Assembly (NCBI GenBank): GCA_024741835.1
Contig: JAENRP010000038.1
Span: 116,020-180,019 of the forward strand
Length of the DNA stretch: 64,000 nucleotides
Direction of reading: 5' to 3'
Source: Diplocarpon mali
Lineage: Eukaryota; Ascomycota; Leotiomycetes; Helotiales; Drepanopezizaceae
Positions 39,846-60,419 of this stretch are shown in pieces (within the stretch, counting starts at the first letter, position 1; each line of letters opens with the position of its first letter). The position numbers and the translations under genes are program-made. The notes below the pieces were generated by a model that saw nothing but the letters and a program-made list of their open reading frames with translations, made no database searches and had not been told where the DNA came from.

Positions 39846-41768
39846 AAAGCGCGACATCTCGGTGTCATGACTATCAGATACGCGAAGTATCTCAGGGCGG
39901 TACATCAATTCCGCATTCTCTGCCATCTCCAATGCACCGTCGTCTCCCATGGTCTCACAGCGTGTCACTGAAGAAGCCAAGTCCTCTGCAGTTACTTTGG
40001 AAAAGGCGAGGACAACAGCGATGCCCAGTCTATTTGAGAATCGTTGGGGAAAGCGCGGATCTGGGAGTCTTTGACGAGGTCTCACTTGTGTGTACAGCCG
40101 TCATTCATGCGTGTGTACGAGGAAATGTCCGGCTCAGGTGTCACCCAACGGCGAGGCCCGGTTGCCCCCCGAAGCCCAAGTCCCGCGCTACAATGTCGCA
40201 AAAGCTGGGGAATAATCACACATGTGAATCGGCGTGTTCGCGGATGACCCGAGTCATACCGTACAGTTCGCCTTGGTGGTACAGCCCAGCCACGGTCATG
40301 TAGTGTCCTCGCCTTGGATGTACAGCCTCATGTTTACCGACTTCGGTATCACCCACGCATCCCACGCGAGCTAGCCTACCTGTGCTTCTCGGTCACAGCG
40401 AGGATGTGCCTCTGCCATCCCCCGCACCGTGGCCCGGTTACTCGGCGCACCCCTGAGGCGCTTTTCCCGTCGCTCGACCTCTCATGCGAATGCCACAACT
40501 TCTCTCAAGCCACCTAGCAATAGGATTGGAGGACTAGCGCTCGGCGAGGCATTCAAGACCGGCGCTGCACTCTGTTATGTCCGTTGCGGGTGCGGATCCA
40601 CGGTGTTGTCCAGGAGGTCGAATGCGGTGGGCTTGAGCCTCAAGTCTGCCCCGGACACTCCCAGGCGCCTCCAGAGGGCGCCAGAAGGAAAGCCGGGTGT
40701 ACATGCAGGAAGCAGCGGCATCCGGACATGTTTCAAGCAACGCTCTCCTATGCAACGCAAGGCGTGCGCGGAAGTGCCGTGCGATGCGTCTCATGGCCAC
40801 GAGCGAACATGATGCGCCAAATCCGAGTGCCACCACGAGGGGGATGTCTCTCCCCGAGCTGCACGCTCCGTCCGGAATTCGAGATTCGCAGCGAGGGGAT
40901 GAGGGAGACGGTGCAAGTGTCTGCCGCAACACCAAGTTCATGGCTGCTGGTGCCGCTGGCGCAATGTGCACGCCGTCATGCCTGTCGGCACCCCCTGTGG
41001 CGTTGTGGCGTTGTGTCGCTGTGGCGCTGTGGCGCTGTGGCTGATGCCGGCAGCCCCCTGGACCTGCCGACCTGCCGACCCTCCACCCTCCTCGGCGACA
41101 CAGCCCGCCGGACGCTCATGCGCAGCCGCCATCCAGCTCGGCTCAGCTCAGCTGACCGGCTCATCAGTCATCACGTGTTGCGTTCCCTTGTCATCAGCCA
41201 TAGCAGCTCTTCGCTATATGCCCTCGTACCTCGACATCCCCTCGCACCTCAACATCTCCTCTCACCCCCCTCCCACCCTCGCCCCCATCTCAACTCTCTC
41301 CAGGGCCCATCGATCTTCGCCCCCCCCCTGCGGTGGTGAATCCTGTGGCGCACGAGTTGCCGCTGTCCCCCGTGTGACCGACTGCCTCCTATGCGCGTGC
41401 CACCTTCACACCGGGCTTCACACTGGCCTGGAGCCCACCGAGCTCTCCAACCGTTCCTCCGAAATAAAAGACTCGTCAGGCAGCCAGCCATGGCCCTCTC
41501 TACGTCCCTGACCTCTCTGTCGCCGTGCAAGCTCTGTGTCCCTCACTCGCACCATGCGCGCGACACCGGGTCATCTCCGCATACTCATATATCGAAGCTG
41601 CGTCTACGCCTGGGTGCAGAGGCCGGCTACCACAGGGATAGGAGAGGCAGGATCAAGAGCTCGCAGCAAGAGTTCGAAGCGCCCGGAGAATCTGAAGCGC
41701 AAGCATGGTATGTACTCGCAGCTGTCCCCCGCGGATCCGGGTACTGTGGGCGGGCGAGAGCAGAGCTG
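39846..41768. other. Intergenic, no convincing gene
   Basis: GC-rich DNA with many overlapping shadow frames. It contains an 8-bp repeat (TGTGGCGY, six copies at 40996-41043) and a C-rich stretch near 41260-41330. The last part is presumably the promoter and leader of the lipase-NB-ARC gene. Confidence 0.5.
40996..41043. repeat. 8-bp tandem repeat TGTGGCGY, six copies
   Basis: Six adjacent 8-bp units with single-base variants, ending TGTGGCTG. Located about 750 bp upstream of the lipase-NB-ARC start codon. Confidence 0.85.
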
Positions 41769-44700
41769 ATGGATTCCACGCAGGGCTCCGCGATCAATCC
41801 CGGCGACATCAAGCGTTACGAGGTGACCGAGGTGTACTGCCATCCCCGGGCCAGAGTCGACATCGTCCTCGTCCATGGCCTCAATGGGAACCCGCGAAAC
41901 ACGTGGACGGCGCCGAACGGCGTCTTCTGGCCGAGCCAGCTCCTGCCGGCGTCGCTCAAGGCGTGGCAGGCGCGGATCCTGGTGTATGGGTATAATGCAG
42001 ACGTCTATACTTTTGGGAGTGGGAAGGGAGGGCCGAGGTATGTCGTTTTCATTGGGTATATGGATCGTCTGGCTCACAGACGATATGGATGTGTGGACAT
42101 GCGGAGGAGATGTTGACTCTTCTTTTTCCACGTCCGGGGGATTTATCGATACCTTCACATCGAGGCTAGGTAGATTCTCCTGTACCGAGGCGTTCTGACA
42201 GGTATCAGTTCCGACATGATCCACCAGCACGCACAAACCCTGCTTACCAACCTGGCCTTGGAACGAAAGAGCGAGGAGGTGCAGGAGCATCCCATCATTT
42301 GGGTGGCCCACAGCTTGGGCGGAATACTGGTCAAGCGAGCCCTGGAGCTCTCATTCGATCTCCAAGGGCATCACGACGACGACCTGCGGTCCATCTTCGT
42401 CTCGACGTTCGGAATCATCTTCCTAGGAACACCCCATACTGGAGCCGACCCTGCCAAGTGGGGGCTGATGCTCCAGGGCATGGTCAGCGCCCTGGTCCCC
42501 AAGAAGCTGTTTGAGACCCACTCGCAACTTATCAAGACGCTGCAGAACAACAACGAGATCCTGCAGAATATCAACCTTCGCTTCCTCGACCTCTACCCCA
42601 ATCGTCTCCGGGTATGCATGGTCCACGAAGGACATCCTACGGATCTGAAAGGGACGAAGCAACTCATCGTCGACCAGGCAGCCGCCAGTCCTCAGCTTCC
42701 CGACGTGCAGTATTTTGGCATCGAAGCGACCCATTCGGGCATGTGCAAGTTCGACAGCAAGAATGCGCCCGGCTTTACCAACGTCTCGGTCACGCTCCGC
42801 TCGTGGGTTCAGGAATGTCCGGACTTTATCCAGACGCGGTGGGAGGCGGAGAGGATGTTGAGACGGCAGAAGAGGGAGGATGAGATTGCTCAGCTGCAGC
42901 GGCTGGTAGGTGACTCCATTGCGAGGAGATCTTAGAGCTGCTGCTGACGAGCAGCAGTCAGGACTGTTGCCGGGGACTCCGCAGATGAGCTCTCGCAACA
43001 CGCCTGGTAGGTCATCCCGTCCGTATCCCGCACAGCGACGCGAGATGTTTCAAGGCCCTCCAACCCCTCGCCTAGAGAGCTAGGGGGTCGTCTCTGGCGT
43101 GTTTCTGTTGATTTTTCCCTTTCAGATTCAAGAATGGCAAATCTGCTTCGCTTCCGGTGGCTTTGGCGTCTGCTTATTTTCCGCGTGGAGGGACCGGGCT
43201 GATTTACCTCGTAGAGCCCGAGTCGGTATATAGCTCAATGATCATAGCGAAATCAACCATCAGCATCGCACCCGTTGAGCCCGAGCAAGACGCTCCGTAT
43301 TTTATAAAACCATCCGGCTTCCGTCCCAACTCGCTCTTCATCGGTCGAGAGGCCGAGCTAGAGCAGATGCATAGGATGCTCTTCGACAAGAAGAAGCGCG
43401 CCGACGGCACATCTGCTGTTCTGTTGCAGTCCCTCCCCGGAGGGGGCAAGACGCATCTGGCGCGGCAGTATGTCTACAACCACAGAGACGACTTTCCCGG
43501 CGGTATCTTCTGGCTCCGAGCTAAGAGCGAGACCGAACTCGCCGCCGGGTTCTGGGACATTGCGCGCAGAGCAGCCTTGAAGCATCTCGTCGGCACGGAA
43601 GACGAGGGCTCGCTGGAGGATCCAGGCCAGTTCATCGACATGGTTCGCAAGTGGCTCGACAACCGCCACGAGTGGCTCCTGGTACTCGACGGTATCCACT
43701 TTACCGACTCGGCGGCCCTGTGGAAGTTCATCCCGGACAGTACTGATACGAGCCTCATCTACACCTCGACACAGAAGTCAGTCATCGGAGATCATCACTA
43801 CATGAATCCGCAGCTGATCAAGCTTCCACTCCTCTCTGCTAGGGAGGCCCAGAGAGCCTTGCTTCTTGAGCTCGGGAGGACGGAGCCGTTCGCCAAGGAC
43901 GACTTGCGATATTCCATGGAGCTGGTGCAGTCGATGGGCTTCTTGCCCGTGGTCATCCACGCTGTCGCGCAGCGGCTCAAGACGACGGACGAGCCCCTCA
44001 GCAAGTTCGCCCGGCACTATTCCGCAGAGCCCAAGCTGCGAGGTCTCGGGACCTATCGAGCTGTGGTTGACCAGTTGAAAGCCCAAGGGGCCGAGGAAGC
44101 GTTGAATCTCGTCAACATCCTCTGTTTCTTCAGCCAACACATCCCGGTTGAGATGGTCTCCCTCGGCCTGAAAACCCTCGACGTCCCAGTCAAAGCCTAC
44201 GAGCCGGTCTCGGGAAACTCGCTCAACAACACCTTCAAGATCCTCAACGCCTTTGCACTCATCGATCGGAATGAGCACGAGACCGAGATCCACTCATCGC
44301 TGAGCTCGAAAGGCAGCCGCAACATGCTTGCCGATAACGTGGACGTCATCCGGCTGCACAGTGTCGTGCAAGGCTTCTTCGCCGATACGCTGCATGCCGA
44401 CGGGACGCTCCTCGCCTGGCTCGATCGCGCGGCCAGGGTCTTCTGTTGTTCCTACGACATGGCGAGCGAGCGCATTTCCCGCAAGCCCAACGCCGGGCTG
44501 GTGGAAGATTATCGGCTGTACGAGATCCACGGGATCAGGATCAAGGAGCACCTAACCAAGCATACTTCCAAGCGTCTATCGAGAGAACAAAAGCAAACCA
44601 TGAAAGAGGCAGACGAGATGTTGGACTTGCGTCTGCGAGCGATCAAGGCGGAGATTGATCGCAAGACACCTGAATCGTCCCATGTCATCGCGAGGGGCAG

Positions 44701-46204
44701 GCCAGAGCAGTTCCAGCATTCGATCTTTGACCGCTCGAGCAGCTCATCGGATACAGGCCCGGAGACGCCGGGCGTGTGTGATGGCCTCCGGTTGAGGGTC
44801 TCCCCGTGGGGCATGGAGACTGGAAAGGACCAGCACCACTCTCCTTCAAGCCTGACGCGAGACACCGACTACATCCGCTATCTCGATGCGACGCGCATGG
44901 CTCACTTCCCGGTATATATGCCTGAGGACCCTGGGTACGACAGCGACGGAGAAGAGCTGGTCGCCGTGACGACCCAGCCATCTCCGCGGACCGTCTTTCC
45001 AGACCGGGTGAGTTCCGAGAGACCGTGGGAAGGGAACAGGACTAGACGACTGCGCCGGGCAGAGCCGTTACGGTCACATCGAAGAGTCAAGAATCTGAAC
45101 GTGTCACGATACCGAGACACTGCTGGGGCGTTTCGAGCCATGAGCGCAATCGGCCCCAGACTAAGCGGCGATAATGCTCAGGGCTACTTGCATGGAAGTT
45201 CCTCTCGGGCCCAATCCAGGGCCTGGCTATCTGCCCCATCAGGTGCTGAGGTTTCGCTCGCACACATCAGTCGGAAGAGTCCTCCACCAGCCAGGGGCGA
45301 AAGTATGACCCAGGATCGACGACCACCCTCTCTCAAGCCTGTCCATGGGAGTCATCCGACGTTAGGTCTCTCGTCCTACGCTGCTGCTGTTGCTGGCCCT
45401 ACACGAGATACGATCTTGGGGCTGAGAGAGCTGGTGCACCCTACCGAGCCGATAGTCAGCGAGACCGAGAGCATGGCATCTCTGGAACGGCCCAACAGCT
45501 CGGCGGTGGAGTCTCTTCAAAAGATCCCACTCACGCCTGTAACCATGCCTCCTTACCCCCCATCTCCCCCTATCGCCTCTGCTTGCAACAGTCAATACCT
45601 CCCAGCCGACGCTCTCAGCTCTCAGCATCATCTCTTACTGGGCTTCGAGCCCTTCCCACCGACAATATACCCCAGGCTCGAGGGTCTCCCGCCCATGGAA
45701 AGCCCCTCCAACTCGCCGCGCACCCCTCATCGGCTGTCGTCTCAGCGAGAGGGAGAAACCCCCCTGGAACCCACGCCCGCGCCCAGTTTTCTCTCGCGCT
45801 CTCATACGAGCGAGACAAACCTGCACATCCAGATCCTCTCGCTCTCCACGCCTAGTATCCCCGTCCAGCGCCCGCGCTCAACCTCGACGGATGCGCGTGC
45901 GGGTGCGTACTACCCCGGCAGACCGGAGCTCGCTGATGGGGAAGCGGGCGGCGGGTATGCGAGCCAACCCATGTCGAGAGAGGCATCCGGGCAGTCGGGC
46001 CTCCAGACTGACCGGAGGGAGAGGAGACGACCCAGTGTTGCGGCGACGGAACCTCAGCCGAGACTGCCCGGCTTCAGTCCGAGGGTTGCGCCGACTGGCT
46101 TTGGCTACTCTGCGTGGGAAAGCATGAGGCTCTGGGAAATCGCGCGTGAGAGTGCTGAGGGAGGGGAACGGGAGGATTACGGGAGGGGGGGCGGAGGGTA
46201 TTAG
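41769..46204 (+). CDS. STAND (NLR-like) protein: SesB-type alpha/beta hydrolase plus NB-ARC
   Basis: Exon 1 is 41769-42037. Exon 2 starts at 42209 and runs to about 42907, and the last long exon ends at 46204. One or two introns between about 42907 and 43250 could not be fixed. The N-terminal hydrolase has VDIVLVHGLNGNPRNTW (oxyanion region), WVAHSLGGILVKRAL (nucleophile Ser) and ATHSGMCKF (catalytic His), as in fungal SesB/LipA-type effector domains. The NTPase has a Walker A (LPGGGKTHLARQYVY) and Walker B (EWLLVLDGI). It is followed by a helical ARC-like part with the RLHSVVQGFF motif. Then come a charged helical segment and about 500 residues of Ser/Pro-rich disordered tail; no WD40, ankyrin or clear TPR repeats are seen. 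Such proteins are candidates for fungal nonself recognition and incompatibility; that role is inferred. Confidence 0.82.
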
Positions 46205-59342: not shown

Positions 59343-59355
59343 AAAAATAACAAAA
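59343..59355 (-). terminator. Pol III terminator of the tRNA-Lys gene
   Basis: On the minus strand, TTTT at 59355-59352 is followed by TTTTT at 59347-59343, starting 8 bases after the discriminator base. Runs of four or more T are the usual RNA polymerase III stop. Confidence 0.75.
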
Positions 59356-59363
59356 CTATATGT

Positions 59364-59520
59364 CGCCCGGTGAGAGGCTCGAACTCACAACCTTAAGCTG
59401 ATTTTGCATCAAGGTTCTATGACCTATCTGCTTAAAAGGCTTACGCGCTCTATTCATCCATATTAGAAATATCCCTTCCCTCGATCTGGGAGAACCTACA
59501 ACCAATTGTGCCAACCGGGC
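59364..59520 (-). tRNA. tRNA-Lys(UUU) with anticodon-loop intron and a D-loop insertion
   Basis: The 5' acceptor strand GCCCGGT (59520-59514) pairs perfectly with ACCGGGC (59371-59365); the discriminator is G at 59364. D-stem halves are GCAC and GCGC. Anticodon stem TAAGC/GCTTA encloses loop CTTTTAA, giving anticodon UUU (59436-59434). A 33-nt intron at 59432-59400 sits at the canonical position after base 37. T arm is GTGAG, TTCGAGC, CTCTC. An extra 50 nt (59499-59450) interrupts the D loop after GGTT. It starts GTAGGT, has CTAAT 15 nt before its end and ends TAG, like a spliceosomal intron. Removing both inserts leaves a normal-length tRNA. Mismatches occur at 12:23 (A-C) and 50:64 (U-U). 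The A box (TGGCACAATTGG) and B box are intact. It may be functional or a recent pseudogene. Confidence 0.8.
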
Positions 59521-60419
59521 ATGACTAACCCCCCTCCCGCATTACAATACATAATCCTTTCACAGCCTCCAGTCTGTGGCGAGCTTCTGCCGGCCCCGCC
59601 CTCCACACCCCAAGAAGCCACCCGCCACCCGCCACGCACCAGCCACCCAACCCAGCCCCTACCACGTCCTTCCCACCTCCGGGCGCGAGTAAACAAACCG
59701 TCTCGCCCAGACCCGACATCCTCTCTCCTACTCACTCTCGGCACGCCTGGCTTTTTCCACAGTCAAGACAAGGCGCTCCCCGATTATATATCCTTCGACG
59801 CGTGCCGTATCCCTCGACGCGTGCCGAGGTACGTAGCCAAGGCGGCGTCTGCCTCGGATCCGACCTTTCTCCCACCATCTCGACCTCGGCTTCGCCCACG
59901 GTACGCACCAGGCGCGAGGCAAGTTAGGATCAGGCACGGGTGTGGAGCAGGTCAATTGAGAAAATATATAGAAAAGTATGCAAGTAAAAGGACCCACGGC
60001 TCCCGGTGTTCGACCATAAGCCCCCCTCCACCCCCTCAATCCGCAGCCAAGCGCATGCGTCCTCATCGCCCTCCGCCGCAACGCAGAGAGGGAGGGGCGT
60101 GGATACCGTCGAGGCGCGCGTTTGTGAGGGATGTTAGTGCTGGTGTAAGCGAGGCTGAGGCGAGAAGGTGTCGGTTCTCTCGTCTGGGGGTGCCGTGCGT
60201 GGGTATGGAGACTCGGAGAGGGAGGAGAGTCGATCGATCCAGGGGGAAGACCGTAGTCACGGGGGTCTCTGGCTCCTCTCCCTGTGCTGCGGCTCGCGCG
60301 TCGCCGTTCGAGAATCTAGGCACAAAGCGTACATATATACATGAGAGTGGTGTAGCTACAGATAACAAGGCCGACATGACTCCCGCCGAGACGCCTCCCG
60401 TCCTCTACGCATACAAAAT
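59521..60419. other. Intergenic, no gene seen
   Basis: A plus-strand frame spans most of it, but its Pro/Arg-rich translation has no domain and is probably chance in GC-rich DNA. It lies between the tRNA promoter side and the 3' end of the IF-2 gene. Confidence 0.5.

Follow-up and report, generated by a model that had tools for sequence, protein, structure and literature searches.

Putative spliceosomal introns in nuclear tRNA genes of Diplocarpon mali

U6 snRNA is a Pol III transcript, and nucleomorph tRNA genes carry ectopic introns. In a 2017 survey, no small structured RNAs other than U3 and U6 were known to have frequent intron interruptions (PMC5832005). According to that survey, the fungal U6 snRNA gene (of S. 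pombe and others) holds a spliceosomal intron, and the introns of the fungal U3 snoRNA, a structured non-coding RNA, have a CTRAY branch site at a short distance from the acceptor; U3 paralogues may differ in having the intron (PMC5832005). For tRNA genes, one review described nuclear introns as lying exclusively between positions 37 and 38 (37/38), and it reported introns with a bulge-helix-bulge motif in the D loop and elsewhere in the tRNA genes of Cyanidioschyzon merolae (PMC3978253). Eukaryotic tRNA genes have further been described as limited to one intron (PMC8450103).

In this study, we analysed three nuclear tRNA genes on three contigs, each carrying an insertion with GT-AG ends: two tRNA-Lys(UUU) genes, interrupted at 20a/21 and 8/9, and an elongator tRNA-Met(CAU) gene, interrupted at 46/47. 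They belong to Diplocarpon mali, the apple-blotch fungus (Helotiales). The genome analysed comprised 49.4 Mb in 676 contigs, and the first Lys gene lies in what we call the window, a whole stretch of 64,000 nt on contig C38. As in U6 and U3, the insertion interrupts a short structured RNA gene, and as in the U3 introns a CTRAY branch stands close to the acceptor; U6 and U3, in contrast, are not tRNAs, and U6 involves no second splicing enzyme, whereas each gene studied here has an additional intron at 37/38. The canonical introns are present in these same genes, and the GT-AG insertions, with their mRNA-type signals, lie elsewhere. In position the insertions resemble those of C. merolae, but they have GT-AG ends and a branch site, and two of the three show little of the bulge-helix-bulge motif. 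Among the open-access papers searched, none was seen to describe introns of the mRNA type in nuclear tRNA genes, and a search of viral contigs for the 8/9 form of the intron returned nothing. Judged from the DNA, the best reading would be that nuclear tRNA genes acquired mRNA-type introns on several occasions and that the spliceosome removes them; we put the probability that the GT-AG segments are spliceosomal introns, in at least three cases, at about 0.75. Such introns would extend the occurrence of spliceosomal introns in short structured RNAs to tRNA genes that also bear tRNA-type introns.

The interrupted tRNA-Lys(UUU) gene of the window

The first-pass annotation had placed a 50-nt insertion in the D loop of a tRNA-Lys(UUU) gene at 59450..59499. 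These coordinates proved exact, and the gene lies on the minus strand with the following features:

59541..59555, minus strand: A/T-rich upstream stretch at -35 to -21, without a TATA match
59365..59520, minus strand: tRNA-Lys(UUU) gene, positions 1-72 including both insertions, as read by ARAGORN after removal of the 50 nt
59500..59520, minus strand: exon 1, positions 1-20a (acceptor 5' strand, D stem 5' strand, GG of the D loop)
59502..59513, minus strand: A box TGGCACAATTGG, uninterrupted, read from the sequence by the general A-box consensus
59450..59499, minus strand: 50-nt GT-AG, mRNA-type intron in the D loop (20a/21)
59494..59499, minus strand: donor GTAGGT, read from the sequence; an intron of 52 nt, fitted to one of the window's protein genes, opens with the same hexamer
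59462..59466, minus strand: branch-like CTAAT, whose A (59463) precedes the intron end by 13 nt
59450..59452, minus strand: acceptor TAG, read from the sequence
59433..59449, minus strand: exon 2, A21-A37 (D stem 3' strand, anticodon stem 5' strand, anticodon TTT)
59400..59432, minus strand: ordinary 33-nt tRNA intron at 37/38, with a candidate central helix TTTT/AAAA (4/4)
59365..59399, minus strand: exon 3, from position 38 to 72 (anticodon stem 3' strand, T arm with U50.U64, acceptor 3' strand)
59375..59385, minus strand: B box AGTTCGAGCCT, read from the sequence by the general B-box consensus
59343..59355, minus strand: T4 and T5 runs, 9 and 17 nt past the gene, a likely Pol III terminator

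Read in order, the 5' part consists of the acceptor strand GCCCGGT, U8, G9, GCAC and the D loop AATTGGTT, followed by the 50-nt insertion. After it come A21, GCGC, the anticodon arm UAAGC-CUUUUA and the 33-nt intron, and the 3' part continues with A-GCUUA, AGGUU, GUGAG-UUCGAGC-CUCUC, ACCGGGC and a G at position 73. The two promoter boxes, previously noted as intact, were both present in the gene sequence, the A box without interruption. With introns allowed, ARAGORN assigned the unspliced gene to a spurious Gly(CCC), and only without the 50 nt did it return Lys(UUU) with a 33-nt intron. At this locus, the Rfam search and the standard tRNA finder gave no match for the unspliced gene, and RNA folding of the whole unspliced gene gave an uninformative z of -0.70.

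It had been stated that the gene folds as a normal tRNA once both segments are removed. The results showed that a UUU cloverleaf, as expected of a nuclear tRNA-Lys(UUU), was formed after removal, with the acceptor stem paired at 7/7, the anticodon stem at 5/5 and the D stem at 3/4; the statement needs correction in that two stem mismatches remained, A12.C23 in the D stem and U50.U64 in the T stem. For comparison, mismatches in the same three stems (acceptor, D and T) were counted in 36 other nuclear tRNA genes, with the GT-AG segment taken out of the Met gene. No mismatch was found in 21 genes, one in 13, two in one gene and three in one gene, so that 15/36 had at least one and 2/36 at least two. 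The pair of mismatches makes the case for the window copy weaker than that for the other two genes; it is the weakest of the three interrupted genes and could be weak or dead.

The excision point had also been called unique, and this did not hold. Under the constraints set for the D-arm test, 19 deletions of 48-52 nt restored an equally good D arm (3/4 pairs, A12.C23 mismatched). Two of these had GT-AG ends, and the 50-nt one yielded an ordinary D loop, AATTGGTTA.

Two further interrupted genes and the intron signals

A hunt through the genome for other Lys(UUU) copies, as the first-pass annotation had proposed, led to a second interrupted gene. The Met gene was recognised among the tRNA loci of the genome. 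The two genes are:

C77:162169-162322: second Lys(UUU) gene, with a GT-AG intron at 8/9
C234:14179-14330: elongator Met(CAU) gene (locus L051), with a GT-AG intron at 46/47 in the variable loop

The C77 gene was found through a pattern search (anticodon loop, then B box) that matched at C77:162265, and reading upstream revealed the whole gene. It is composed of GCCCGGGT, an insertion of 65 nt between positions 8 and 9 that runs GTAAGT...CTAAT...TAG and ends in GGTCTAATTCAAAAAATAG, then AGCTCAATCGGCAGAGCGTGTGGCTTTTA, a 16-nt intron at 37/38 and the remainder. ARAGORN reported Lys(UUU) without the 65 nt and nothing with them. After removal, a UUU cloverleaf with intact acceptor, D and T stems was obtained, and only three deletions, one of them GT-AG, restored a cloverleaf whose D stem had 3 or more pairs. 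Downstream of the insertion, with the ordinary intron counted in, the gene was 75-78% identical to the three Lys(CUU) genes, and ten bases of 3' flank were common to it and two of the Lys(CUU) genes compared. A U.U mismatch in the anticodon stem was common to the C77 gene and Lys(CUU). Against Lys(CUU), the T stem carried a compensatory pair, G52-C62 to A52-U62, as would be expected if the gene is kept as a tRNA.

The genome gave 45 Rfam tRNA matches, of which 38 were read and 4 were covered via ARAGORN only; C137, C108:34642 and C75 were left out. L051 was spotted among the 38 loci by an overlong segment after the anticodon. Its variable loop is split into AGG, 49 nt (GTAAGATTGCC...CACTGACGCAAATCATAG) and TC, the insertion running GTAAGA...CTGAC...TAG. 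Without the 49 nt, ARAGORN returned Met(CAU) with a 29-nt intron at 37/38; the acceptor, D and T stems were perfect, and one U.U remained in the anticodon stem. The unspliced form gave an odd Met model in which the intron measured 71 nt and the loop was non-standard. We also found a second Met-like 5' half at C27:112171-112201 on the minus strand, in which two mismatches form a compensatory D-stem change. No B box was found for it in the range searched after the anticodon loop, since it was absent from the 13 places that this search returned, fewer than the 26 of its control; 6/13 places were read. The 3' half would therefore be displaced too, the cause being either an ordinary intron of great length or a GT-AG one.

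All elements ascribed to the window insertion (GTAGGT donor, CTAAT branch-like motif and TAG acceptor) were present, and like signals stood at other positions in the two further genes of the same genome, which supports the earlier suggestion of an mRNA-type intron in a tRNA gene. GT/AG ends and the fungal donor consensus were found in all three genes: the donors are GTAGGT (window), GTAAGT (C77) and GTAAGA (Met), and the TAG end is present in 3/3. The branch sites are CTAAT, CTAAT and CTGAC, respectively, and their adenines precede the intron end by 13, 12 and 12 nt. Each insertion has a CTRAY branch within the 6-36 nt from the acceptor given for fungal introns (PMC5832005). The longer RCTRAY form described in the same survey was found in the Met intron (ACTGAC) and not in the two Lys introns (TCTAAT) (PMC5832005). 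The lengths of 50, 65 and 49 nt were protein-gene-like. As had been said of the window insertion, 50 nt is a length typical of introns in the window: among five fitted protein-gene introns, one of 52 nt carries GTAGGT and CTGAC and one of 47 nt carries CTAAC, the others in the first window gene, of 44, 101 and 171 nt, being less certain.

We then counted chance occurrences in 328 kb of the genome, with the window insertion and the second Lys locus left out. The combination of GTRNGT, an in-range CTRAY branch and YAG at exactly 50 nt occurred at 1 in 647,400 places (1.5e-6), at 49 nt at 1 in 647,576 and at 65 nt at 0 in 644,760. With the donor relaxed to GTRNG, the same set gave 15 (50 nt), 8 (49 nt) and 9 (65 nt), the highest rate being 15/647,400 or 2.3e-5. 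Multiplied by the 19 acceptable cuts, the chance for the window insertion was about 3e-5 to 4e-4. In the DNA sampled, 80 intron-like strings, both Lys insertions among them, were counted against 45 in the reversed control, and the branch distance was 9-14 in 43/80 and 14/45, respectively. Presence of the insertion elsewhere, as a recent element, had been named as a finding that would reduce the copy to a pseudogene. DNA searches with both Lys genes, with very common words skipped, returned no other copy of either insertion, and we rejected a repeated element or introner for the two Lys insertions.

Search for uninterrupted Lys(UUU) genes, and related loci

Cytosolic AAA codons need a UUU anticodon. 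A protein encoded in the window matched a Diplocarpon mali protein at 100% (97% of the query), and the next gene matched IF-2 of D. coronariae at 100% over the searched region; we take D. coronariae and Diplocarpon mali to be synonyms. The IF-2 frame contained 19 AAA and 35 AAG codons, and one exon of a neighbouring gene 7 AAA and 27 AAG.

Intact Lys(UUU) genes elsewhere, together with silence of the window copy, had been named as a finding that would reduce that copy to a pseudogene, and our pattern searches found no uninterrupted nuclear copy. Four patterns were used: C32 with an intron of about 0-30 nt (50 matches), C32 with 31-61 nt (17 matches, only G being admitted at position 57), T32 with about 0-30 nt (75 matches) and intact 5' halves (60 matches). 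None returned an uninterrupted nuclear Lys(UUU) gene, within searches on a draft assembly that are blind to an unusual form such as an odd B box or a longer intron and to a gene in an assembly gap. Flanks were examined for 47 of the 67 C32 matches and 46 were parsed. A T stem of at least 4/5 together with an upstream 7/7 acceptor partner was present in 3/46, namely the window gene, the C77 gene and L096. The other 20 C32 matches (about 0-30 nt) and the 75 T32 matches were judged by eye from their strings and were mostly dispersed-repeat-like. Among the 60 intact 5' halves, D-stem pairing was 4/4 in 2 and 3/4 in 7; 32 were searched for a B box within 130 nt (or the shorter flank for L134 and L135) and 0/32 had one, and the remaining 28/60 were judged on the 5' half alone. 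Where tested, only the two interrupted genes passed, besides a mitochondrial-looking Lys(UUU). A published assembly of the same species is reported with BUSCO values of 97.7% and 99% and with 136 tRNA genes by tRNAscan-SE (PMC7864672).

Several related loci were seen in these searches. L096 (C91:16713-16795) has a UUU-loop-like string, a T stem of 4/5 and a 7/7 acceptor partner 150 nt upstream; no D arm was seen by eye, and the likeness is probably due to chance. The mitochondrial-looking tRNA-Lys(UUU) lies at C198:42979-43049, and the same 80-kb contig contains one member of the dispersed repeats (C198:24442). These repeats are A/T-rich and occur on many contigs (e.g. L069 and L078), with a T-arm-like hairpin CTAG-TTCGATC-CTAG and the end TTATTATTA; the family could be a decayed tRNA-derived repeat. 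For a Lys(CUU)-like gene (L136 and L137, C13:15830-16285), some 380 bases of upstream sequence contained no 5' acceptor strand that would pair; it is either a truncated copy or a gene with a longer insertion whose acceptor would be the TAG before ACTCAATCGG.

Transcription, removal and alternative explanations

The boxes and terminators suggest a Pol III origin for the three genes. T-run terminators directly follow all three, and a run of T4 or longer was present within 50 nt downstream in 35/36 other nuclear tRNA genes (L051 included). No TATA match was found in the 50 nt upstream of the interrupted genes (0/3), and we dropped TATA as support for Pol III; among 36 nuclear tRNA genes, 23 had a TATA-like match within 50 nt upstream and 13, including L051, did not. 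In the C77 gene, the intron parts exon 1 from the A box, which begins 73 nt into the gene, so a Pol III start spaced as usual from that box might leave exon 1 out of the transcript. The case for a Pol III origin is weakened by the absent TATA matches and by this displaced A box. T4 was absent from the insertions and present in 6/39 comparable window segments, a difference that was not significant, and we set it aside as a sign of selection by Pol III.

Two removers are known, the tRNA endonuclease and the spliceosome; since mRNA-type signals are present in all three genes, the spliceosome is the likely remover of the GT-AG segments. The insertions lie at 20a/21, 8/9 and 46/47, away from the endonuclease position 37/38, and each gene has a separate 37/38 intron, of 33 nt (window), 16 nt (C77) and 29 nt (Met). 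The interrupted genes would most likely be transcribed by Pol III, the spliceosome would take out the GT-AG intron first, the pre-tRNA would then fold, and the tRNA endonuclease would finally cut out the 37/38 intron. With an mRNA-type intron in their genes, these tRNAs would need the mRNA-splicing machine in addition to the usual tRNA-splicing enzyme, and the cell would rely on this removal for its AAA codons. We give even odds to the broader proposition that tRNA genes of this fungus gained spliceosomal introns repeatedly and that all decoding of AAA, perhaps also elongator Met, needs spliceosome and endonuclease on one Pol III transcript. Such gains may perhaps have occurred in related Helotiales as well.

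Four other accounts were weighed against or beside this reading. The window gene may be dead or dying, so that removal of its intron is no longer needed and AAA codons are read by the tRNA of the C77 gene or of an intact gene that escaped the searches. Its two stem mismatches and the draft state of the assembly point that way, as does the 5'-truncated Lys(CUU) relative, by which dead copies of the Lys family would exist. In a dead copy, however, nothing would preserve a GT-AG segment so precisely positioned and complete in its branch signal, and the anticodon stem (5/5), acceptor stem (7/7), both boxes and the terminator are all kept; at least one mismatch is also found in 15/36 other nuclear tRNA genes, and the C77 Lys and Met genes would be left unexplained. 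We consider this account unlikely. Also unlikely in our judgement is a variant compatible with spliceosomal removal, in which the genes are part of longer Pol II transcripts on which the spliceosome acts and from which the tRNA is released later. It would fit the lack of an upstream TATA match in the three genes and the C77 A box that starts 73 nt into the gene, but not the T-runs directly after all three genes or the retained A and B boxes of the window gene.

Removal by the endonuclease, as a non-canonical tRNA intron with a bulge-helix-bulge like those of C. merolae, would suit the D-loop position. We examined it with a simple, four-register test of the central pairs. The GT-AG junctions gave 3/4 (window), 1/4 (C77) and 2/4 (Met), and the ordinary 37/38 introns gave 4, 3 and 3 of 4, so that the window junction equals the 37/38 introns of C77 and Met. 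In the same test, 34.2% of random sequences gave 3 pairs and 6.8% gave 4, and because 41% reached at least 3 where the ordinary introns gave 4, 3 and 3, this low-power test alone decides little. The C77 and Met junctions, with 1 and 2 of 4, speak against the endonuclease, the yeast enzyme is described as cleaving strictly at 37/38 (PMC4033280), and donor, branch and acceptor of mRNA type would have to be a coincidence in three genes. We regard this account as very improbable. Chance resemblance or an assembly error is more improbable still: one case on its own, chosen out of a long window, might be fortuitous, but three genes on three contigs share one signal set, and across the lengths and donors tallied the fixed-length odds per position ranged from 0 to 2.3e-5. 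Given this control and the two further genes, we rejected chance.

If the genes are alive, a single pre-tRNA is processed by two splicing systems of unrelated kind, and tRNA genes are open to invasion by spliceosomal introns. Programs that search for tRNAs can then overlook or misassign such genes, as happened with the raw forms in ARAGORN. Spliceosomal removal, if true, would couple pre-mRNA splicing directly to translation capacity. The genes offer a natural test of whether Pol III transcripts besides U6 are good substrates of the spliceosome and of how short structured RNAs gain introns.

Two minor observations concern the same genome. ARAGORN reported an intron in 24/38 tRNA loci (L017-L054), with Thr, Arg, Gln, Leu and Lys(CUU) among them, which gives studies of tRNA splicing ample material. 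The window also contains, at 41490-46201, a large gene, conserved in Helotiales, whose product is LipA/NB-ARC-like (PF13191; its relatives bear the name DUF676).
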